This document shows, piece after piece, positions 2,353-22,156 of a stretch of 32,680 bases of DNA. The stretch is from contig JAHECW010000045.1 of the NCBI GenBank assembly GCA_024641545.1, positions 1 through 32,680 of the forward strand. Direction: 5' to 3'. Each line of letters starts with the position of its first letter. Positions within the stretch are counted from its first letter, which is position 1. The DNA comes from Acidobacteriota bacterium. Its GTDB lineage: Bacteria > Acidobacteriota > Thermoanaerobaculia > Thermoanaerobaculales > Sulfomarinibacteraceae. The notes under the pieces are model-generated. The model had not been told where the DNA came from and made no database searches. It saw only the letters and a list, made by a program, of their open reading frames with translations. Both the position numbers and the translations under genes were made by a program.

Positions 2353-3588
2353 TTACTCCCACCCGGGGACGCGGCGTTGACCCAGTGGGATGAAGTGCCC
2401 GGCGGTGAGCAGAAGCAGGACCCGCTCACCGGGGGAGATGGTGCCGGCATCGACGAGACGGTGGAGCGCGGCGACCACCGCGGCGCTCTCGAAACTCGCG
2501 GCGATCCCGATCCGGCCGCAGTCGGAGAATCTCGCCAGGATCTCCTCGTCGCCGACGGCCACCGCCGTGCCGCCGGAGTCTCTGATGGTGCTCAGAATGC
2601 CGTGGCCCATGATGGCGCCGGGGACATCGAGACCATCGGCGATGGTGCCCCTGGACACCACCGGCCGGACTTCGGTGAGACCCGCCTCGAAGGACTCGAC
2701 GACCGGGGCGCAGTTCTTCCCCTGGACAACGACCATCCGCGGCAGGCGGTGGCTCTTGGGGTCGATGAGGCCGAGGCCGATCAGCTCCTGCATCGCCTTC
2801 CAGATTCCGACCAGACCGGTGCCGCCGCCGGTGGGGTAGAGAATCCAGTCCGGGAGGTTGTCGGCGCCGAGGTCGTGGAAGATCTCGAGCCCCATGGTCT
2901 TCTTGCCCTCGAGGCGGCCCGGTTCGAAAAAGGTGGACATGTCGACATACGCCCCCGAGGCGAGCTCGGCGGCCACGTCGTCGCGCATCTTCTTGCCCGC
3001 GGCGGCGATGTTGGAGCCGTGAAAACGGACCTCGGCGCCGAAGTACCGGGCTTCGCGGTGGTAGAGCCCGTCTTCGTATCCTTCGGGCATGTAGACCAGG
3101 CAGCCGGGGAGGCCGAGCCGGGCCGAGAACAGACTCGCCGCGACGCCGGCGTTACCTTGGGTCGGCAGGCAGAATCGCTGCGCGCCGCAGGCGCGCCCGA
3201 AGGCCACCCCGGCGGCAAGGCCACGGTCCTTGAAGCTGCCCGAGGGGTTGGTCCCTTCGTTCTTGGCCAGAACCGTGACGCCGAGGCGCCTGCTCCAGGA
3301 TTCGATCTCGACCGTTGCGGTGAGCCCGACATCGGCTGCAAAGGACCGGCGGGGGCCGATGACCGGCAACAGATCGGAGAAGGACCACATCCCCTGTGAT
3401 CGCCGAGGTTGTCCGAGCTCGACCCGATCGAGGTCGTACTCGACGACGACGGGCTTCCCCGGCGGCGGACAACAGGAGCACAGGCCGATGGGTTTGTCGA
3501 ATCCGCGCGTTTCGATTTCTCTTCCGCTCATCGAGCACACCAGGCGTTTAATCTTCGGATTGATCCGCAGGCCCGCGTTGTTCATCAT
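2353..3588 (-). CDS. thrC: Threonine synthase-like PLP enzyme
   Basis: The 411-residue protein has fold-type II PLP-enzyme features. The probable Schiff-base lysine is K120 in NPSGSFKDRG, an Asn-containing QGNAG loop follows at about 165, and the glycine-rich phosphate-binding loop TGGGTG lies near residue 273. The N-terminus carries clustered cysteines (C18, C37, C39, C40), as in threonine synthases with a small metal-binding N-terminal segment. Threonine synthase converts O-phospho-L-homoserine and water to threonine and phosphate in the cytoplasm. No hom or thrB gene lies nearby, so a related threonine synthase-like activity such as a diaminopropionate or cysteate synthase-type reaction cannot be excluded. 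AGGAGG is placed correctly upstream of two adjacent ATG codons at 3588 and 3585. Confidence 0.82.
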   Translation of the reverse strand: MMNNAGLRINPKIKRLVCSMSGREIETRGFDKPIGLCSCCPPPGKPVVVEYDLDRVELGQPRRSQGMWSFSDLLPVIGPRRSFAADVGLTATVEIESWSRRLGVTVLAKNEGTNPSGSFKDRGLAAGVAFGRACGAQRFCLPTQGNAGVAASLFSARLGLPGCLVYMPEGYEDGLYHREARYFGAEVRFHGSNIAAAGKKMRDDVAAELASGAYVDMSTFFEPGRLEGKKTMGLEIFHDLGADNLPDWILYPTGGGTGLVGIWKAMQELIGLGLIDPKSHRLPRMVVVQGKNCAPVVESFEAGLTEVRPVVSRGTIADGLDVPGAIMGHGILSTIRDSGGTAVAVGDEEILARFSDCGRIGIAASFESAAVVAALHRLVDAGTISPGERVLLLLTAGHFIPLGQRRVPGWE

Positions 3589-3902
3589 CGCTCCTCCTGC
3601 AGAGCATTATCGCCGAACCGTCGAGAACTCCCAGGCGCCCGGTTCTGGGGTGCGGTGCCGCAGACGGAAGTGCGGGTGGAGACGGGCCCGACTGAGGCGC
3701 TCGATGGGCTCTCGGTCGGAGGCCGACTACTATGCGGCGGTCGGGTTCGGCTGGTGCGGCCCTCTGGGCGGCCGACAACTCCGGCCGGCGGTTTTCGTAT
3801 TTATCAGGGATCCGGCGGGCCGCCGCAGGGTCCGGGGGTCGCTCGGCGGGATCGGTTAGGGTGGATGGAGCCGGATACCGGGTCGGCACAAAGGGGTGAG
3901 AG
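3589..3902. promoter_or_regulatory. Divergent intergenic region with a candidate promoter for the downstream plus-strand gene
   Basis: This 314-bp GC-rich gap separates two divergent genes. On the plus strand TAGGGT (3857-3862) could be a -10 box, giving a leader of about 34 nt. A ribosome binding site (AAGGGGTG) ends 5 nt before the ATG at 3903. I see no small gene, terminator or convincing repeat in the rest. Confidence 0.35.
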
Positions 3903-5060
3903 ATGTTCAGGAGATCGGTCATCGTCATGGCGGCAACCGCGGTCCTGTCGATGGGCGGGTCGCTCTCCGTGTGGGCGCAATCAACCCCCTCCGCGGAGGA
4001 GTTGCTCGGGGGCAGGCTCCTCGGCGCCGCCGGTGAAACCACCCCGGCTGTCGATCATCGGGAGGTCCTCGCCCTCAGCGATGAGATGCAGCGGTTTCTG
4101 AGCGAGTACGTCAATCCCGGGGCCACCGATGTCTTCAAGCTGCAGCAGTTGATCGATGCGATCATGGACGCGACCACCTTCGGACTCGAGTACGACGAGA
4201 ATACCCGCACCGCCGCCGAGACCTTCCGCCTCCGACTGGGCAACTGTCTTTCCTTCTCCGCCATGTTCGTAGCCCTGGCGCGCGGTGTCGGATTGAACGC
4301 GGAGTTTCAGGAGGTGGACATCCCGCCTGATTGGTCGATGAGGAAGGATGTCTTCGTGCTCAACCGGCACGTCAACGTCAGCATTTCTCTGGGAGCCGCG
4401 GGAACCCACGTCGTCGACTTCAACATCAGCGACTTCAAGAGCACCTACGAGATCGACATGATCTCCGACAAACGCGCCATCGGGTATTTCTACAACAACC
4501 TGGGCGTCGAACGGATGCAGGACGGCGACATCTCCGGAGCGGTGGCGAACTTCCGTCGAGCCGTCGTCGACACCGACCGGAGCTTCTCACCGGCGTGGAC
4601 GAACCTCGGTACCCTGTATCGGAAATTCGGTTACCACGCGTACGCCGAGGCGGCCTACAAACAGGCGCTCAAGGCCGACAAGATGGACGTGGTGGCCATG
4701 AGCAATCTGGTCAGCCTGTACGAGAAGATGGACGATCCGGAAAAGGCCGAGATCTATCAGAAGAGGGTTGATGAGCACCGGATGAGGAACCCGTACTTCC
4801 GCTTCAGCCTCGCCCGCGAGGCCTTCTTTGATCGTGACTACGAAGCCGCCATCAAGCACCTCAAGGTCGCCATCAGGGAGCACAAGAACGACGACGAGTT
4901 CTACTTTCTCCTGGGTCAGTGCTATCTCATGAGTGGGGATGAGAAGGAGGCGCGCCGGTGGACCGTCAAGGCCGAGGAGGTTGCGGCGACGGACGAGGCG
5001 CGAAAGCGGTACTCGACCAAGATCGAGACCTTGATGGCCGCATCGCAGAAGGTGGATTGA
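3903..5060 (+). CDS. Exported transglutaminase-like protein with TPR repeats
   Basis: The 385-residue protein starts with a signal peptide ending near VWAQ (residue 26). Residues about 80-180 look like a transglutaminase-like papain fold: Cys115 in RLGNCLSFSAMFVALAR, His156 in NRHVNV and Asp172 in HVVDFN form the expected Cys-His-Asp triad. From about residue 195 come TPR-like helical pairs (YFYNNLGVERMQDGDISGAV, then AWTNLGTLYRKFG, FYFLLGQCYLMSGD). Bacterial proteins of this layout are usually uncharacterised exported proteins; the triad suggests a protease or amide-processing activity, with the TPRs for partner binding. The start is supported by AAGGGGTG upstream and by the signal peptide. 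The next gene encodes another exported TPR protein. Confidence 0.8.
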   Translation: MFRRSVIVMAATAVLSMGGSLSVWAQSTPSAEELLGGRLLGAAGETTPAVDHREVLALSDEMQRFLSEYVNPGATDVFKLQQLIDAIMDATTFGLEYDENTRTAAETFRLRLGNCLSFSAMFVALARGVGLNAEFQEVDIPPDWSMRKDVFVLNRHVNVSISLGAAGTHVVDFNISDFKSTYEIDMISDKRAIGYFYNNLGVERMQDGDISGAVANFRRAVVDTDRSFSPAWTNLGTLYRKFGYHAYAEAAYKQALKADKMDVVAMSNLVSLYEKMDDPEKAEIYQKRVDEHRMRNPYFRFSLAREAFFDRDYEAAIKHLKVAIREHKNDDEFYFLLGQCYLMSGDEKEARRWTVKAEEVAATDEARKRYSTKIETLMAASQKVD

Positions 5061-5100
5061 GGACAGTGCTCCCTCCGGTCGCTGTGAGGAGGAAAGAGGG

Positions 5101-5262
5101 TTAGACGTGAGGAGTCAGGAGTTAGGAGTTAGAGGTTAGACGTGAGGAGTTAGGAGCGAGGAGAAATCCTCATTTCCCCACAGCGAGCGGAGCGAGCGCT
5201 CACTCCTAACCAGCGAGCGAAGCGAGCGCTGACCTCCTCACCCTCTCACCTTCTCACCGTTG
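5101..5262. repeat. Purine/pyrimidine-rich intergenic repeat, family copy 1
   Basis: Purine-rich units based on GTGAGGAGTTAGGAG occur several times. They are followed by two copies of a core CAGCGAGCG-(G/A)-AGCGAGCGCT, each followed by a pyrimidine-rich segment complementary to the purine units (CACTCCTAAC, CCTCCTCACC). The whole can fold as a long imperfect hairpin. Related sequence is at 21413-21484 and 31618-31728; the 20-base core CAGCGAGCGAAGCGAGCGCT recurs there in reverse complement. No coding capacity is seen. Confidence 0.7.
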
Positions 5263-5326
5263 AGCCTTCCCGTCGTCCGATGTCAAAAACCTGTATTTAT
5301 CGCGAAATCGCGCCCGCGGGCCGCGC

Positions 5327-5332
5327 TATACT
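5327..5332 (+). promoter_or_regulatory. Candidate -10 box (TATACT) for the carboxypeptidase-regulatory/TPR gene
   Basis: TATACT matches the sigma-70 -10 consensus at five of six positions and lies about 110 nt upstream of the start at 5446. I see no good -35 at the expected spacing, so this is weak. Confidence 0.3.
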
Positions 5333-5445
5333 GCGCCCGAGACGACCGCTTCTCGCGACCCGATCGGGGTTCGGGATGGTGGCTTCGACAAGGGCGGGGA
5401 TGATGGAGACCATCGCCCGCCGATACCCAAGGAGAGGTGTTCACG

Positions 5446-6711
5446 ATGCTGACCAAGAAATCCGCCCTGATTTGTTCCCTGATTCTGATGCTCATGGCCG
5501 CCGGAATGGCAGATGCCGCTTACAAGGGCAGGCTCATCGGCGTCATTGTCGATCCGGACGGCAAGCCCATCGAAGGCGTGACGGTGATGGCGACATCGGA
5601 TGATCTGCCTGCCTTCAACGAAACCAGAGTCACCGACAAGAAGGGTGTCTTCAAGATCGACTTCGATGAGATCAACGTCACCTACAAGTATCAGTTCTCC
5701 AGAAACGGTTACATCACCCTTCTCACCGAGCAGGTGTGGACCAAGGACGGTTCGGCACGGCATTACTTCACCCTGACTCCGGGAGAGTCCGTGGTCGGTG
5801 CCATCGGCGAAGCAGTGGTGGTCGCCTCCTCGGCGGCCGCGGTGGCGTATCAAGAGGCGGTCGCCGCGTTTGAAGCCAAAGACTATGTGACGGCCGAGGC
5901 CAAGCTCGAGGAGACGCTGGAGGACGAACCCGAACTCCGCCAGGCCTGGACAGCCCTCAGTGTGGTCGAACTCGAGCAGGAGCACTACGCTGAATCGGCT
6001 GCGGCCGCCGAAACAGCCATCGAGCTCGGATCGACCGACATGGCCGTTTTCCGGACCCGGTGGGAGGCCTATCGGCTGGCCGGCGATGAAGCCAAGACCG
6101 CCGAGGCGCAGGCCGATCTGGAGAGATTCGGCCAACTCGCCGAAGAGGCGAAGAGAATCTACAACGAAGGTGTCGCGCTGCTGAAGACCGGCGACAAGGA
6201 GGGTGCGTTCGTCAAGTTCGAGCAGGCCCTCGACGCCGATCCGAACCTCGAGCCGGCCCTCTTTGCTGCCGCGACCACGGGTCTCGAAACCGGCAGGCCA
6301 GCCGTAACCGCCGACGCCGCCAAGAGGATTCTGGTCAACAATCCGGGCAATCAGGACGCGCTTCGCCTGAGCTACAACGCGGCGCTGGAGCTCCAGGACG
6401 ACGAGATGCTCATCGACGCCCTCGTGGGTCTCGCTCCGGTCGAACCCGAGGCCGCAAAAAAGAACCTCTGGGTTCTCGCCATGGCGGCGTACAACGCCAA
6501 CGACAACGAGAAGAGCAAGGATCGGTTCGCCAAGGTTCTTCAGGTGGATCCGAACAACGCTCAGGCCCACTACCTCCTGGGACTCGTGTACCTGGGTGAG
6601 GGGGCCAACGACGAGACCCGGGAGCACCTCGGGCGGTTCCTCGCCCTCGCCCCCGACGACCCCGATGCAGCGTCGGCTCGGGAGATTCTCGCGTATCTCG
6701 GCGACAGCTGA
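5446..6711 (+). CDS. Exported protein with carboxypeptidase-regulatory-like domain and TPR repeats
   Basis: The 421-residue protein has a signal peptide (ICSLILMLMAAGMADA). A carboxypeptidase-regulatory-like beta-sandwich follows at about residues 27-105 (GVIVDPDGKPIEGVTVMA, then a KGVFKIDF strand). From about residue 140 to the end are at least six TPR-type helical pairs, including AYQEAVAAFEAKDYVTAEAKL, YNEGVALLKTGDKEGAF and AHYLLGLVYLGEGAN. Such proteins act as periplasmic or surface scaffolds; no catalytic residues are evident. The ATG at 5446 is preferred over the GTG at 5437 because AAGGAG (5429-5434) is 11 nt from the ATG but only 2 nt from the GTG. The neighbouring genes also encode exported proteins, and the next gene downstream is a TonB-dependent receptor under its own promoter. 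Confidence 0.8.
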   Translation: MLTKKSALICSLILMLMAAGMADAAYKGRLIGVIVDPDGKPIEGVTVMATSDDLPAFNETRVTDKKGVFKIDFDEINVTYKYQFSRNGYITLLTEQVWTKDGSARHYFTLTPGESVVGAIGEAVVVASSAAAVAYQEAVAAFEAKDYVTAEAKLEETLEDEPELRQAWTALSVVELEQEHYAESAAAAETAIELGSTDMAVFRTRWEAYRLAGDEAKTAEAQADLERFGQLAEEAKRIYNEGVALLKTGDKEGAFVKFEQALDADPNLEPALFAAATTGLETGRPAVTADAAKRILVNNPGNQDALRLSYNAALELQDDEMLIDALVGLAPVEPEAAKKNLWVLAMAAYNANDNEKSKDRFAKVLQVDPNNAQAHYLLGLVYLGEGANDETREHLGRFLALAPDDPDAASAREILAYLGDS

Positions 6712-6757
6712 TCGGCGACTCGACGAGACAGCATCTCAGTGAAATCCTAGGTGTCTG

Positions 6758-6794
6758 GTACGGATTTCCGGGCGATCTGTTCGGAAATCCGTAC
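6758..6794. repeat. 13-bp perfect inverted repeat with 11-nt loop upstream of the TonB receptor
   Basis: The arms (6758-6770 and 6782-6794) are perfect complements built on GTACGGATTTCCG. No T tract follows, so a terminator is unlikely. It lies about 46 bp after the preceding gene and about 230-265 bp before the sigma-54 promoter. That distance suits an enhancer-binding-protein site, although a structured 3' end of the upstream mRNA is equally possible. Confidence 0.55.
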
Positions 6795-6898
6795 GGCAGG
6801 CCGGGCAGCGGTCCTGGGACCGATTTCTGAACTGCGCACTCGGTCCTCCAGACTCTCTTCTCCGTCGGTCTCCGCTGGTTTTTTCCGTGTCCTGAAAA

Positions 6899-6914
6899 TG
6901 TGAGATAAGTCACT
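6899..6914. promoter_or_regulatory. CRP-type binding site
   Basis: TGTGA-GATAAG-TCACT matches the CRP consensus TGTGA-N6-TCACA at nine of the ten defined bases. It is flanked by AAAA on the left and TTTT on the right, as in the ideal site. Its centre is about 118 bp upstream of the sigma-54 -24 element. The Crp/Fnr protein encoded at 21485-22156 keeps the residues that contact TGTGA. The motif is seen directly; occupancy is inferred. Confidence 0.6.
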
Positions 6915-6983
6915 TTTTCGGATGCACTTAGAGGCTGGATCGAACGCTGACAGGGAAGGCCGGACCGAAGATCCGTTGTAAAA

Positions 6984-7016
6984 CCCCGGCATCGTCGTGA
7001 CGATGCCGGGGTTTTT
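6984..7016 (+). terminator. Rho-independent terminator, strong and potentially bidirectional
   Basis: The 13-bp perfect stem (6984-6996 with 6999-7011, built on CCCCGGCATCGTC) has a nominal 2-nt loop, a TTTTT tract after it and AAAA before it. It lies 272 bp after the nearest upstream gene and ends only 8 bp before the sigma-54 promoter. It could end the upstream mRNA or a short unannotated RNA, and it insulates the receptor promoter. Confidence 0.85.
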
Positions 7017-7023
7017 ACATACA

Positions 7024-7039
7024 TGGCACGGTGTTTGCA
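7024..7039 (+). promoter_or_regulatory. Sigma-54 (-24/-12) promoter of the TonB-dependent receptor gene
   Basis: TGGCAC-GGTGT-TTGCA is a full match to the -24/-12 consensus, with the invariant GG (7025-7026) and GC (7037-7038) exactly 10 nt apart. Transcription would begin near 7050, giving a leader of about 206 nt before the ATG at 7256. Sigma-54 promoters need an enhancer-binding ATPase; none is encoded in this window. Confidence 0.75.
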
Positions 7040-7049
7040 ATTCTTTTCA

Positions 7050-7255
7050 TGTCTATATGTATAGCTGCGCATTCCGATCACCGAAACGCGATGAAAATCG
7101 ACGGGAAGGCCGCGCACGGGGCCTCTCTGTTTTGGGTGGTCCGATCCAGATCAACAGTGTATTTCATTCCATTCGGGAACCACGGTGTAGGAGGACCGCG
7201 GAACCCACATCAGTTCTTCCAACGCGTAATTGAAACCACTAGGAGGAGGAAGTTT
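7050..7255 (+). other. Long 5' leader of the TonB-dependent receptor mRNA
   Basis: About 206 nt separate the predicted sigma-54 start site from the ATG. The receptor frame is open through the leader, but translation starts at 7256, where AGGAGGAGGA (7241-7250) precedes a clean signal peptide. I looked for cobalamin, TPP and cyclic-di-GMP riboswitch signatures and found none that were convincing. It may hold a structured control element. Confidence 0.4.
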
Positions 7256-10200
7256 ATGTTTGATAGGAAATTGAGTTTTCGTCTGGCGATTCTGATCGGC
7301 CTCGTGGCTGTCGGACTTGCCGCCCTGCCCGTCATGGCGCAGGAATCCGAAACCGATCCGCTCACCGACGAGATGATCGAGCAGGCGATGGAACGCTCGT
7401 TCGAGGGCGAAGTCACCGTCACCGGTTCGCTGATTCCGCGCGCCGACCTCACCGCGCTGAGCCCCGTGACCGTCATGGAGGTTCCGCAGGAGCTGACTTA
7501 TTCCGGTACGGTCCGCATTGAGGACCTCGTGAAGACCATGCCGCAGGCGTTTGCCGGGCAGAACTCGACGGTCGCCAACGGCGCTTCGGGTACAGCCACC
7601 ATCTCCCTGCGTCAGCTCGGAACCGTCCGCACCCTCGTGCTGATCAACGGCCGCCGGATGCCCCCGGGCAACGGCGACGGTTTTTCGTACGCCCCTGACC
7701 TCAACGTCATCCCCGCGCCGCTCATCAAGCGCGTGGACGTTCTGACCGGCGGCGCGTCGACGACCTACGGTTCCGACGCCATGGCCGGCGTGGTCAACTT
7801 CGTCATGGACACCGATTTCGAAGGCGTCCGCGGCGGTGTGCAGTACGCCGGGTACAACCACGACAACAACAACAAGCTCGCCCAGCAGATCAACACCGAT
7901 GCCGGCTTCGACGTGCCGACCGGCTCGACCTGGGACGGCGAATCGATCAACGCCAACATCGCCCTCGGTGGCAAGTTCGCCGACGGCAAGGGCCACGCGG
8001 CGGTCTACCTCGACTACCGCAAGCTCGACGAGCTCACCAAGGGCTCGCGTGACTATCTGAACTGCTCGGTCGCCGCTGGTGACGACGGTCCGTTCTGCGG
8101 TGGTTCCGGGACCACCCCGATCGGGCGTTTCTACGCGTTCAACGCCGACGGCACGCGCAACGGCGACTTCGTCATGCACACGCCTGCGGATGGTGGCGAT
8201 GGCCGCTCCTTCCGGCCGCGCGCGGGCGACGTCTTCAACTACGGCCCCTACAACCACATCCAGCGTCCCGACGTGAAGTGGAACGCCGGCGCCTTCGCCA
8301 ACTACGAGATCAACAAGCACTTCGACGTGTACATGGAAGTCATGTACATGAACAACAACACCGATGCGCAGATCGCGCCGTCGGGCAACTTCAACGTCTA
8401 CGCCAATATCAACTGCGACAACCCGATGCTCTCCGACCAGCAGAGGGATACCATCTGCGGCCCCGGCACCGGCTACGGTCCCACCGACCTCGCCAACGTC
8501 TGGATCTTCCGGCGCAACGTCGAGGGAGAACCGCGGTCCAACGAAATCGGCCACAGCAACATCCGCATGCTGGGTGGCGTCCGTGGTGAGATCAGCGACG
8601 AGTGGAACTACGATTTCTACTACATGCACGGTCAGAACAACCAGTACGACTCGTACAACAACGACATGAACGTCAACCGCATCGGCTACGCCCTCGATAT
8701 TATCGAGGATCCCGACACCGGTGAGTGGGTCTGCCGCTCCGGCGACGCCGGCTGCGTGCCCTGGAACATCTTCAACAACCAGGGTACCGGGGAAGTGTAC
8801 GACGACTACCATGACGGCGTGACCCAGGAAGCCATCGACTACATGTCCACCGTGGCCGTGCAGTACGCGGTGACCTCGATCGATGTCTTCAACCTCACCT
8901 TCACCTCGGACTGGGAGAACTACGGAATCGCCCTCCCGTCCGCCAGCGAAGGCGTCCAGTTTGCCGGCGGCGTCGAGTACCGCGAAGAGTACTTGAAGAA
9001 CACCCCTGACGAGGTCTATCGCAACGCGGACGCCGCCGGATTCGGCGGCGCGACCGAGCAGATCATCGGTGGCCTCAACGTCAAGGAAGCCTTCCTCGAG
9101 CTCCTCGTTCCTCTCGTCCAGGACGTCAAGGGCGCCCAGGACCTCTCCCTCGAGCTCGGCTATCGCTATTCTGACTACAGCACCTCCGGCGGCGTGAGCA
9201 GCTACAAGGCGCAGGCGAGTTACGCCCCGACCCAGAGCTGGCGCATCCGCGGCGGCTACAACCGCGCCGTTCGCGCGGCGAACATCTCCGAGCTCTTCCG
9301 GGTGCAGGGCTACAACCTGAGCGGTTCGACGGACATCTGCTCCGGCGACAACCCGACGGCCACTGCAGCGCAGTGCGCCAACACCGGTGTCTCCGCGGCT
9401 CAGTACGGGAACATCGCGCCCAACCCGGCCGGCCAGTACAACACCCTCGAGGGTGGCAACCCCAACCTCGACCCCGAAACGGCCGACACCCTTACCGCCG
9501 GTCTGGTGTGGACCCCGCAGTCGATCCGCGGTCTGTCCATCACCCTCGACTACTACAACATCGACATCACCGAGGCCATCGGCTCGCTCGGCGCCGACGA
9601 CATCATCCAGCAGTGCGCCAACACCGGTGACCCGACTCTCTGCTCACTCATCCATCGCGACGCAGCCGGTACGCTGTGGGCGACCACGGCGGGCTACACC
9701 GACACCGCCAACAACAATATCGGCCAGATCCAGGCCGAAGGCGTTGACCTCAACTTCAACTACCTCCTCGGTCTCGGCAACTCCGGTTACCTGGCCATGG
9801 ACCTCATGGGCAGCTACGTGCTCAAGAATGAGTTCACCAACCCGTTGGTGAGCTACGACTGCGCCGGTTACTTCGGCTTCCAGTGCGGACAGCCGAACCC
9901 CGACTGGCGTCATCGCTTCCGGGCCACCTGGGAGACCAACTTCCGCCTGAACCTTTCGCTGGCCTGGCGCTATGTCGGCGAGGTCAAGAACGACGACTTC
10001 AGTTCCGACACTGACATCGGCAACCCGGGCAACTGGGACCTCTGGCGGGTCAACAACATCGACAAGATCAACGCGTTCAACTACTTCGACCTTGCGGCTT
10101 CGTACACCCTCCGCAACGGTCTCAAGTTCACCCTCGGTATCAACAACGTCCTCGACGAAGAGCCGCCGCTTGCGCCGGATCACGCCGATGACAACGGCAT

Positions 10201-10267
10201 CAACATGTACGGTATCTACGATCCCGTTGGTCGCTACGTCTTCGGTAGCGTTCAGTTCAACTTCTAA
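7256..10267 (+). CDS. TonB-dependent outer-membrane receptor
   Basis: The 1003-residue protein has a signal peptide (hydrophobic 9-28, ending VMAQ). A plug domain at about 55-190 includes EVTVTGSLIPR, TISLRQLGTVRTLVLINGRR and the hallmark VLTGGASTTYGSDAMAGVVNF. A long beta-barrel follows, ending with the outer-membrane signature (YVFGSVQFNF, terminal Phe). The late conserved segment NYFDLAASYTLRNGLKFTLGINNVLDEEPP is typical. It imports a large substrate across the outer membrane using TonB-ExbBD energy. The plug style resembles receptors for carbohydrates or peptides rather than classical siderophore receptors, but the substrate cannot be read from sequence. The gene is preceded by sigma-54 and CRP-type motifs and followed by its own terminator, so it appears monocistronic. 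Confidence 0.93.
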   Translation: MFDRKLSFRLAILIGLVAVGLAALPVMAQESETDPLTDEMIEQAMERSFEGEVTVTGSLIPRADLTALSPVTVMEVPQELTYSGTVRIEDLVKTMPQAFAGQNSTVANGASGTATISLRQLGTVRTLVLINGRRMPPGNGDGFSYAPDLNVIPAPLIKRVDVLTGGASTTYGSDAMAGVVNFVMDTDFEGVRGGVQYAGYNHDNNNKLAQQINTDAGFDVPTGSTWDGESINANIALGGKFADGKGHAAVYLDYRKLDELTKGSRDYLNCSVAAGDDGPFCGGSGTTPIGRFYAFNADGTRNGDFVMHTPADGGDGRSFRPRAGDVFNYGPYNHIQRPDVKWNAGAFANYEINKHFDVYMEVMYMNNNTDAQIAPSGNFNVYANINCDNPMLSDQQRDTICGPGTGYGPTDLANVWIFRRNVEGEPRSNEIGHSNIRMLGGVRGEISDEWNYDFYYMHGQNNQYDSYNNDMNVNRIGYALDIIEDPDTGEWVCRSGDAGCVPWNIFNNQGTGEVYDDYHDGVTQEAIDYMSTVAVQYAVTSIDVFNLTFTSDWENYGIALPSASEGVQFAGGVEYREEYLKNTPDEVYRNADAAGFGGATEQIIGGLNVKEAFLELLVPLVQDVKGAQDLSLELGYRYSDYSTSGGVSSYKAQASYAPTQSWRIRGGYNRAVRAANISELFRVQGYNLSGSTDICSGDNPTATAAQCANTGVSAAQYGNIAPNPAGQYNTLEGGNPNLDPETADTLTAGLVWTPQSIRGLSITLDYYNIDITEAIGSLGADDIIQQCANTGDPTLCSLIHRDAAGTLWATTAGYTDTANNNIGQIQAEGVDLNFNYLLGLGNSGYLAMDLMGSYVLKNEFTNPLVSYDCAGYFGFQCGQPNPDWRHRFRATWETNFRLNLSLAWRYVGEVKNDDFSSDTDIGNPGNWDLWRVNNIDKINAFNYFDLAASYTLRNGLKFTLGINNVLDEEPPLAPDHADDNGINMYGIYDPVGRYVFGSVQFNF

Positions 10268-10289
10268 TCCACTTCACTTCGGTGATCTT

Positions 10290-10316
10290 GGCGGCCCTTC
10301 GGGGCCGCCATTTTTT
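10290..10316 (+). terminator. Rho-independent terminator of the TonB receptor gene
   Basis: GGCGGCCC-TTCG-GGGCCGCC forms an 8-bp stem with a stable TTCG tetraloop and is followed by A and TTTTTT. It lies 22 bp after the receptor stop codon. Confidence 0.9.
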
Positions 10317-10405
10317 GTCCGCTTGCTTGCAAGGGCTGTCGTGGCCGCTGCCGCGGCCCCGGTCACGGTTTCCCCGAGCCCTGGCCTTCCGGTTGGCCCA
10401 TTGTG

Positions 10406-10424
10406 GTGCGGGCGTCCCGCCCGC
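10406..10424. repeat. 19-bp GC-rich palindromic repeat, copy 2
   Basis: Identical to bases 495-513. It lies in the gene-free stretch 10317-10804, about 90 bp after the receptor terminator. Confidence 0.6.
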
Positions 10425-10496
10425 AGGAAGCGTTGATGTTTACCACCATCGTGGACTGACGCCGCCTCGGTAGACGCCTTTCTCAGCTCCGGCCTT

Positions 10497-10575
10497 CTGG
10501 GACGCCTTAGGCGTCCCAGCGTCGCACGGGCAGCGCGGCCGATGGAGCTGCGGGTAGGTGTGACCGCGCTGCCCG
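10497..10575. repeat. Two consecutive inverted repeats in a gene-free region
   Basis: The first is CTGGGACGCC-TTA-GGCGTCCCAG (10497-10519), a perfect 10-bp stem. The second has 12-bp arms CGGGCAGCGCGG (10527-10538) and CCGCGCTGCCCG (10564-10575) around 25 nt. Neither has a T tract. The surrounding 10317-10804 stretch has no credible gene; open frames there are GC-driven. Confidence 0.5.
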
Positions 10576-10727
10576 CGCGAGCGGCGGCCTCATAGCGGGC
10601 GGGGAGAGATCCACCGGAGCGCTTTGCCGCGAGGGTTGCCCGGCGTCGGAATTGTGCTCGGGGCTCCGCGTCGCCGGATGGGTGGAGGTAACGCACAATG
10701 CCGCGCCCGGCACGCCCCGGTGGAGGT

Positions 10728-10797
10728 CGGCCGCTGCCCCGGTCACTGTCGCTGCCCCCCTGTGCCGGCCGCTGTCCCGGCCCGGCCGCTGCACCAG
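10728..10797. repeat. Three degenerate direct copies of CGGCCGCTGYC
   Basis: Units begin at 10728, 10766 and 10783 (CGGCCGCTGCCCCGG, CGGCCGCTGTCCCGG, CGGCCGCTGCACCAG). A related GGCCGCTGCC is near 10342. They sit just past the stop codon of the DUF3313-like gene on the opposite strand. Function is unknown. Confidence 0.4.
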
Positions 10798-10804
10798 CGG
10801 TGGC

Positions 10805-11509
10805 CTATTTTTTGGCGGCGGTTTTTGCCGCCTTGTCGAGCTCGCGGCGCAGGGTCATCGCCTGATCCTGGGCCCACAGCTCGACGTAGTTCCAGACGGT
10901 TGCCGAGTTGGTCGGCGCCTGGTTGACGGCGTTCATGGCCGAGGGCGGTTGAATATACCGTCGATCGGCGGTGCGCGCCTGGATGACACCGGTGTCGGCA
11001 TCGATGAGCTCGAAGACGAAGGTGGCTTCACCCATGGAAGAGAGGTGCACATTGGCCTGCCGACCGACGCCCGGAGGGACACTGGAAACGATGTCGAGCA
11101 CGGCGGCGCGAAGCAGGAGGGTGCCGGGACCGATGGTGTCGACGATCTCGAACTGTTTACTCCGGCCGAGTTCCTTGATTACGACGTCGATGACGAGCTT
11201 TTTGAACTTCTCCTGGTCCTCCTCTGGGACGGCGAAGTAGCCCTGGTCGCCGCGCATCATGGCGGTGGTGGTGCGGTTGACGTTGTTCTCACCGACGTCA
11301 CGAAATTGGAAGACCGAGTTCCACAGATAGAGCGTGTCGTACTTCGAAAAATCGGCCTCGGGGTTCAACCACAGGTTCTGGAACTGGCTGCTCTTCTGCT
11401 TCACAAGGTCGTCAGCGCCAACGACGTCTTTGGGATCGGCATCATTCTGGGCGAGTGCGACACCCGCAACGAGAAGCGCAGCGACGGTGACAAACAGGGT
11501 TGTTTTCAT
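10805..11509 (-). CDS. Exported DUF3313-like protein
   Basis: The 234-residue protein has a signal peptide (TLFVTVAALLVAGVALAQ). The body follows the DUF3313 pattern: a segment NLWLNPEADFSKYDTLYLWN, a helical region EKFKKLVIDVVIKELGRSKQFEIVDTIGPGTLLLRAAVLDI, and a strand-rich segment GEATFVFELIDADTGVIQART. Members are exported, often lipoproteins, with no established function; this one has no lipobox Cys, so it should be periplasmic. The start at 11509 is supported by the signal peptide and by GAGGAA upstream; longer in-frame starts lack both. It converges with nothing and is followed by a repeat-rich, gene-free stretch. The family assignment is by motif resemblance and is moderately secure. 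Confidence 0.65.
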   Translation of the reverse strand: MKTTLFVTVAALLVAGVALAQNDADPKDVVGADDLVKQKSSQFQNLWLNPEADFSKYDTLYLWNSVFQFRDVGENNVNRTTTAMMRGDQGYFAVPEEDQEKFKKLVIDVVIKELGRSKQFEIVDTIGPGTLLLRAAVLDIVSSVPPGVGRQANVHLSSMGEATFVFELIDADTGVIQARTADRRYIQPPSAMNAVNQAPTNSATVWNYVELWAQDQAMTLRRELDKAAKTAAKK

Positions 11510-11674
11510 TGTGTTTCCTCCAATCCTTGCATGGTCATGTTGTGCAACACGATCGGACGCCTGCTCGTTCCTGAATGTCCGGTCTTTTACAGACATTGAC
11601 ATGGCCGACGGGGCCGTGAAACCAGGTTCTCGGCGGTGCCGCGTCAAACCGGGATCAGAGCAAACAACGTGCCA

Positions 11675-21484: not shown

Positions 21485-22156
21485 CTACTCCAGGAGGTTC
21501 TCGCGAATATAGGTGAACTTGCCCTTGTTCACCAGACCGAATCCCTCCTCGAACTCGTTGATGAGTCGAGAGACGGTTTCCCTGCTGGTACCGATCGAGT
21601 GGGCGATATCCGAGTGGGTCGGTCGCCGCACCACCACCCAACCGTTGCCGAGGCGTTGGCCGTGGTCGCGGGCAAGATCGAGGAGGTAGCGGGCAAGCCG
21701 CCCCGCAACGTCCATATACGCCAGCGACTCCATCTTCGCGTTGGCGCGCCGGAGCCGGCGGGAGAGAATCGCCATCAACCGGAGCGAGATCCGCGGGTTC
21801 GAATCCAAGAGACGCTGAAAGTCGGCCCGATTGATCACCAGCACCTCGACCGCGCTCAGAGTTACGACCGAGGCCGATCGAGGAGCGGATTCGAGCAGCG
21901 CCATCTCGCCGAAAACCTGGCCGGCGCCGAGAACGGTGAGGATGAACTCCTTGCCGTCCGATGAGGTGATGACGACCTTGACCCGACCGCTTGCCACCAC
22001 GAAGACCGCGTCGGCGGGATCGCCGGCGTGAAAGATGGTGGTGTCCTTGGCGAGCTTCTTGACCTGGGCGAGGGCCGTGAGATCGTCGAGCTCATCTTCG
22101 TGCATCTCGCCGAAGAGTTCGACACTCGCGAGGAGCGCACGGATGCGATCGCTCAT
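21485..22156 (-). CDS. Crp/Fnr-family transcription regulator
   Basis: The 223-residue protein has an N-terminal cyclic-nucleotide-binding fold whose phosphate-binding cassette reads FGEMALLESAPRSAS (G83, E84, R93, S94). That pattern is expected for cAMP binding. No cysteine cluster for an FNR-type iron-sulfur centre is seen. The C-terminal winged helix has the recognition helix TSRETVSRLINEF: R192, E193 and R197 align with the CRP residues that read the TGTGA half-site. A near-consensus site is found at 6899-6914. The start at 22156 is chosen because its ATG overlaps the stop of the preceding gene (ATGA) and GGGAG lies upstream; longer in-frame starts run into that gene. No adenylate cyclase gene is visible here. 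Confidence 0.88.
   Translation of the reverse strand: MSDRIRALLASVELFGEMHEDELDDLTALAQVKKLAKDTTIFHAGDPADAVFVVASGRVKVVITSSDGKEFILTVLGAGQVFGEMALLESAPRSASVVTLSAVEVLVINRADFQRLLDSNPRISLRLMAILSRRLRRANAKMESLAYMDVAGRLARYLLDLARDHGQRLGNGWVVVRRPTHSDIAHSIGTSRETVSRLINEFEEGFGLVNKGKFTYIRENLLE

Follow-up and report, generated by a model that had tools for sequence, protein, structure and literature searches.

The window, that is, the whole stretch of 32,680 nt that was analysed, carries at positions 7256–10267 of the forward strand a gene for a TonB-dependent receptor (TBDR) of 1003 aa, which shares with other receptors of this type the Plug and β-barrel domains (PF07715 and PF00593). Two further genes of the same strand precede it, encoding a transglutaminase-like protein with TPR repeats (3903–5060) and a CarboxypepD_reg protein with TPR repeats (5437–6711), while a gene for an exported DUF3313 protein (PF11769) is convergent with the receptor gene (10805–11509, reverse strand). 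This order of genes is shared with the congener G002 (transglutaminase/TPR, CarboxypepD_reg/TPR, receptor, convergent DUF3313 and an alanine-dehydrogenase-like gene), and DUF3313 adjoins the receptor module in genome G036 as well. The receptor and the two TPR genes, sometimes with DUF3313, were found as a conserved module across Thermoanaerobaculales (3903–11509 in the window; loci L087, L091, L095 and L096). Homologues of the receptor occur in sphingomonads and other Alphaproteobacteria with about 38–44% identity, and in Kordiimonas with 52%. No NCBIfam model passed its cut-off for the receptor, and the assignment of a cargo from structure or family was discarded, as only weak and generic TBDR matches were obtained.

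The sequence TGGCACGGTGTTTGCA at 7024–7039 of the forward strand is an exact match to the sigma-54 consensus TGGCAC-N5-TTGCW, with the GG at 7025–7026 and the GC at 7037–7038 separated by N10, as the earlier note had read it. This −24/−12 element lies 216 nt upstream of the receptor ATG, and the transcription start predicted from the standard sigma-54 geometry, 12 nt past the GC of the −12 element, would be near position 7050. A scan of the window allowing up to one mismatch returned two matches, both of them exact, compared with 0.45 expected in shuffled sequences, and no sigma-70-like promoter was found between 6600 and 7400. The −24 element is adjoined on its upstream side by a predicted intrinsic terminator (6977–7019, forward strand), whose hairpin arms CCCCGGCATCGTC and GACGATGCCGGGG (6984–7011) form a stem of 13 bp followed by T5, the stem and T-run spanning 6984–7016. 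Its folding energy of −30.8 kcal/mol (z −7.1 against shuffles) agrees with the insulating terminator that had been proposed directly before the promoter; visual inspection of the syntenic orthologue revealed none there. In the stretch separating the TPR gene from the terminator, two other elements were observed. One is a CRP-type site, TGTGA-GATAAG-TCACT, at 6899–6914, and a Crp-family regulator is encoded elsewhere in the window (21485–22156, reverse strand), with a recognition helix reading RETVSR. The other is a perfect 12-bp inverted repeat, TACGGATTTCCG/CGGAAATCCGTA, at 6759–6793, about 50 nt past the TPR gene (fold z −6.1), and the orthologous region of G002 likewise contains a repeat, whose arms are changed.

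The second exact element of the window, TGGCACGTTGTTTGCT (11659–11674, reverse strand), was overlooked by the earlier note and is intergenic, 5′ of the DUF3313 gene. At the orthologous position, the congener G001 has the near-perfect site CGGCACAGGTCTTGCA, with one mismatch, at −170 compared with −165 in the window, whereas no such site was present before DUF3313 in G002. For the two TPR genes, sigma-54 control was considered and rejected, as neither showed a convincing, conserved site: none was found for the CarboxypepD_reg/TPR gene, and no site scoring 10 or more was found in 3588–3903 for the window copy of the transglutaminase/TPR gene.

The machinery that such promoters need was sought in the genome, which belongs to Thermoanaerobaculales (Acidobacteriota). 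An intact rpoN was found (PF04552, E 9e-66, in an open frame of 580 codons), in which the N-terminal region and the RpoN box were present on inspection. The activator domain Sigma54_activat (PF00158) gave 27 hits, of which 22 had E values below 1e-20. The genome has about 22 activator loci, and a GAFTGA or GSFTGA loop is present in at least 12. A total of 16 exact sigma-54 sites were found in the 5.38-Mb genome, compared with seven for the reversed motif. When genes were called from codon usage, with the window as training set, each of the 16 exact sites fell outside genes, while four of the seven controls fell inside them (Fisher P-value of 0.004), and a start codon on the same strand appeared 11–216 nt downstream at 14 of the 15 exact sites with resolvable surroundings. 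Moreover, 207 motif matches were counted in 20 relatives against 64 control matches. Judged by its sequence features, this genome-wide pattern is that of real sigma-54 promoters. Dyads were present in the upstream regions of the four promoters compared, but no putative enhancer dyad was shared among them. On another contig (C270; L016/L017), two genes, one encoding a sensor kinase and the other located immediately 3′ of an NtrC-type activator gene, each lie behind an exact sigma-54 site, an arrangement that looks like a self-contained two-component circuit.

Conservation of the element was assessed at orthologous receptors. The syntenic TBDR of G002 has a perfect site, TGGCACATGCTTTGCA, in the same intergenic region but with a different spacer, at −282 compared with −232 in the window, and an Acidobacteriota homologue of 51% identity has TGGCCCGCTTCTTGCT at −267. 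The expected conservation of the −24/−12 element was thus found in full at the syntenic locus, while it was weaker or absent in many distant homologues. In the sister family, six receptor loci showed a GG-N10-GC element that aligns but is weaker ([AGT]GGC...TTGC), preceded in several of them by a GACAT-N9-ATGTC-like dyad, and no good sigma-54 site was found for the family-level homologues G001:C276, G016 and G022. Sites scoring 12 or more, on a weight matrix that gives relative scores only, appeared in 8 of 22 Acidobacteriota loci and in 3 of about 62 proteobacterial homologues scanned over 600 bp upstream (P-value of 0.0007, the related sequences not being independent). Proteobacterial receptor homologues show no conserved sigma-54 site over this length. 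As G002 lacks the site before DUF3313 and several family-level TBDRs have no good one, sigma-54 regulation of this receptor class is patchy beyond the genus. An element TTGGACA..AATTCGGAATGTC was also aligned about 55–75 nt upstream of GG-N10-GC in sister-family receptors (L096, L097, L034, L084, L082 and L091), and is a candidate activator site.

These data bear on whether TGGCACGGTGTTTGCA could be a chance consensus match in intergenic DNA, the receptor being read from a housekeeping promoter that was not recognized. The seven reversed-motif sites indicate that some exact matches do arise by chance, but the exact sites across the genome are all intergenic and oriented as promoters would be, the element is kept at the syntenic locus despite an altered spacer, a second perfect site lies 4.6 kb away on the next gene of the module, and the region 6600–7400 yielded no sigma-70-like alternative. 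A chance match is accordingly regarded as highly improbable. The predicted sigma-54 promoter of the receptor gene, which had been proposed from the motif, is well supported by rpoN, the activators, the syntenic conservation and the genome-wide distribution of sites.

The leader expected from a start at 7050 is 206 nt long (7050–7255). The figure of about 206 nt, previously given as the distance to the ribosome binding site, is in fact how far the ATG (7256) lies from +1, as the Shine-Dalgarno sequence AGGAGGAGG (7241–7249) begins about 191 nt from +1. It had also been suggested that this leader adds control at the RNA level, so that the promoter would be combined with an RNA switch acting on translation, e.g. 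via a small hairpin with the loop GTAGGAGG (7180–7201). The loop octamer is identical in the hairpin of the syntenic orthologue in G002, with one two-sided stem change between the two sequences compared, hairpins with a GGAGG loop occur in the leaders of two further receptor copies of the genome (C254 and C251, see below), and the leader exceeds those of most other genes with a predicted sigma-54 promoter (11–149 nt at 12 of 14 sites). However, it folded no better than shuffled sequences (z +0.34), its similarity to the orthologous leader was within the range of shuffles, and Rfam gave no match to it or across the 14 loci searched. A riboswitch was rejected after the Rfam search, folding and alignment, and control of the GGAGG loop by CsrA was rejected because CsrA was absent from the 40 genomes searched. 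Upstream peptide ORFs, seen by eye in both orthologous leaders, were unlike each other and were judged to be due to chance in a GC-rich leader. RNA-level control is thus not supported and seems unlikely, the shared hairpin, known from two sequences only, being a lead rather than evidence.

The genome also encodes at least two further copies of the receptor, with protein identities of 82% (C254) and 87% (C251, a contig-end fragment), and no sigma-54 site was found upstream of either of them. The description of a single outer-membrane receptor under sigma-54 control therefore did not hold, given these close paralogues at loci without the site and the perfect site of the nearby DUF3313 gene. Instead, a block GATGTAATCTCAAAA, also given as GATGTAATCTCAARA-(N)-CATTTTGCA, was found upstream of C254, C251 and G002:C25 (L092, L085 and L078) and nowhere else in the five genomes searched; it is perhaps the promoter or operator of the receptor copies that are not under sigma-54.

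Different parts of these loci gave different groupings. By its flanking genes, C251 goes with G002:C25, and C110, the locus of the window, with G002:C59. In contrast, the protein tree pairs copies within each genome, C110 with C254 and G002:C59 with G002:C25. Among the nucleotide sites with a 2–2 split, the mature part favoured the within-genome grouping over the syntenic one by 230 to 21, while the signal-peptide part, taken as alignment columns 1–60, which cover the signal peptide and the beginning of the mature protein, favoured the syntenic grouping by 15 to 4; windowed identities were computed as well. The pattern that characterizes gene conversion (concerted evolution), in which the body groups by genome and the flanks by locus, is thus seen in the sequences of two genomes.

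Independent recent duplications in each genome, rather than conversion between old loci, would also account for the protein tree taken by itself. Against this, the pairing given by the flanking genes (C110 with C59, C251 with C25) is matched by both the signal-peptide codons and the C254/C25 leader block. Because flanks, signal-peptide codons and leader block share it, the receptor loci are older than the split of the two species, and independent duplication is held to be improbable. For the two metagenome-derived assemblies compared, the simplest account is that gene conversion acts on the mature part across loci whose promoters differ, as the homogenised receptor bodies together with locus-specific promoters and signal peptides point to conversion under two different promoters.

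Altogether, the element at 7024–7039 is very probably a working sigma-54 promoter of one receptor copy whose body appears to be gene-converted, so that one uptake function would have two regulatory inputs. According to this model, RNA polymerase bearing RpoN would bind 7024–7039 as a closed complex, and transcription would start near 7050 only once an AAA+ enhancer-binding protein bound upstream hydrolyses ATP on its signal, a gating that follows from the general biology of sigma-54. As the terminator would block read-through from the TPR gene, the receptor copy of the window is expected to be off when the activator is not engaged, while the convergent DUF3313 gene would be driven by its own sigma-54 promoter. 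Other loci would provide the same receptor without the sigma-54 element, and conversion would keep the mature receptor alike within the genome but leave each locus its own promoter and signal peptide. Extended to Thermoanaerobaculales, we lean towards a more general reading, in which one TonB receptor is placed under two regimes, conversion unifying its mature part and each locus having its own signal peptide and its own promoter, either sigma-54 with an activator or of another type.

To our knowledge, sigma-54 targets outside Proteobacteria and the model phyla have rarely been documented, and the 16 predicted sites provide a ready target list for an uncultured order. The locus is moreover a clean case in which homogenisation fixes the sequence of the receptor while its control differs between copies. 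Compared with known RpoN promoters, the site of the window shares the exact core and spacing of the −24/−12 consensus, it is likewise intergenic and correctly oriented, and the genome has both rpoN and enhancer-binding proteins. Control of the bacterial exterior has been described as a theme of sigma-54 regulation (Francke et al. 2011, PMC3162934), one with which the receptor and several other predicted targets that look exported or membrane-bound would agree; the main text of that work mentions neither TonB nor Acidobacteria. The literature searched yielded no paper that connects sigma-54 with TonB receptors and Acidobacteria, apart from passing mentions. As for the receptor copies, the closest parallel considered is that of the tuf genes, duplicates that are kept alike by gene conversion. 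Here, the receptor body appears to be likewise homogenised within the genome and the flanks not, but the copies are further marked by a differing upstream region, with or without the sigma-54 element, and by a differing signal peptide.
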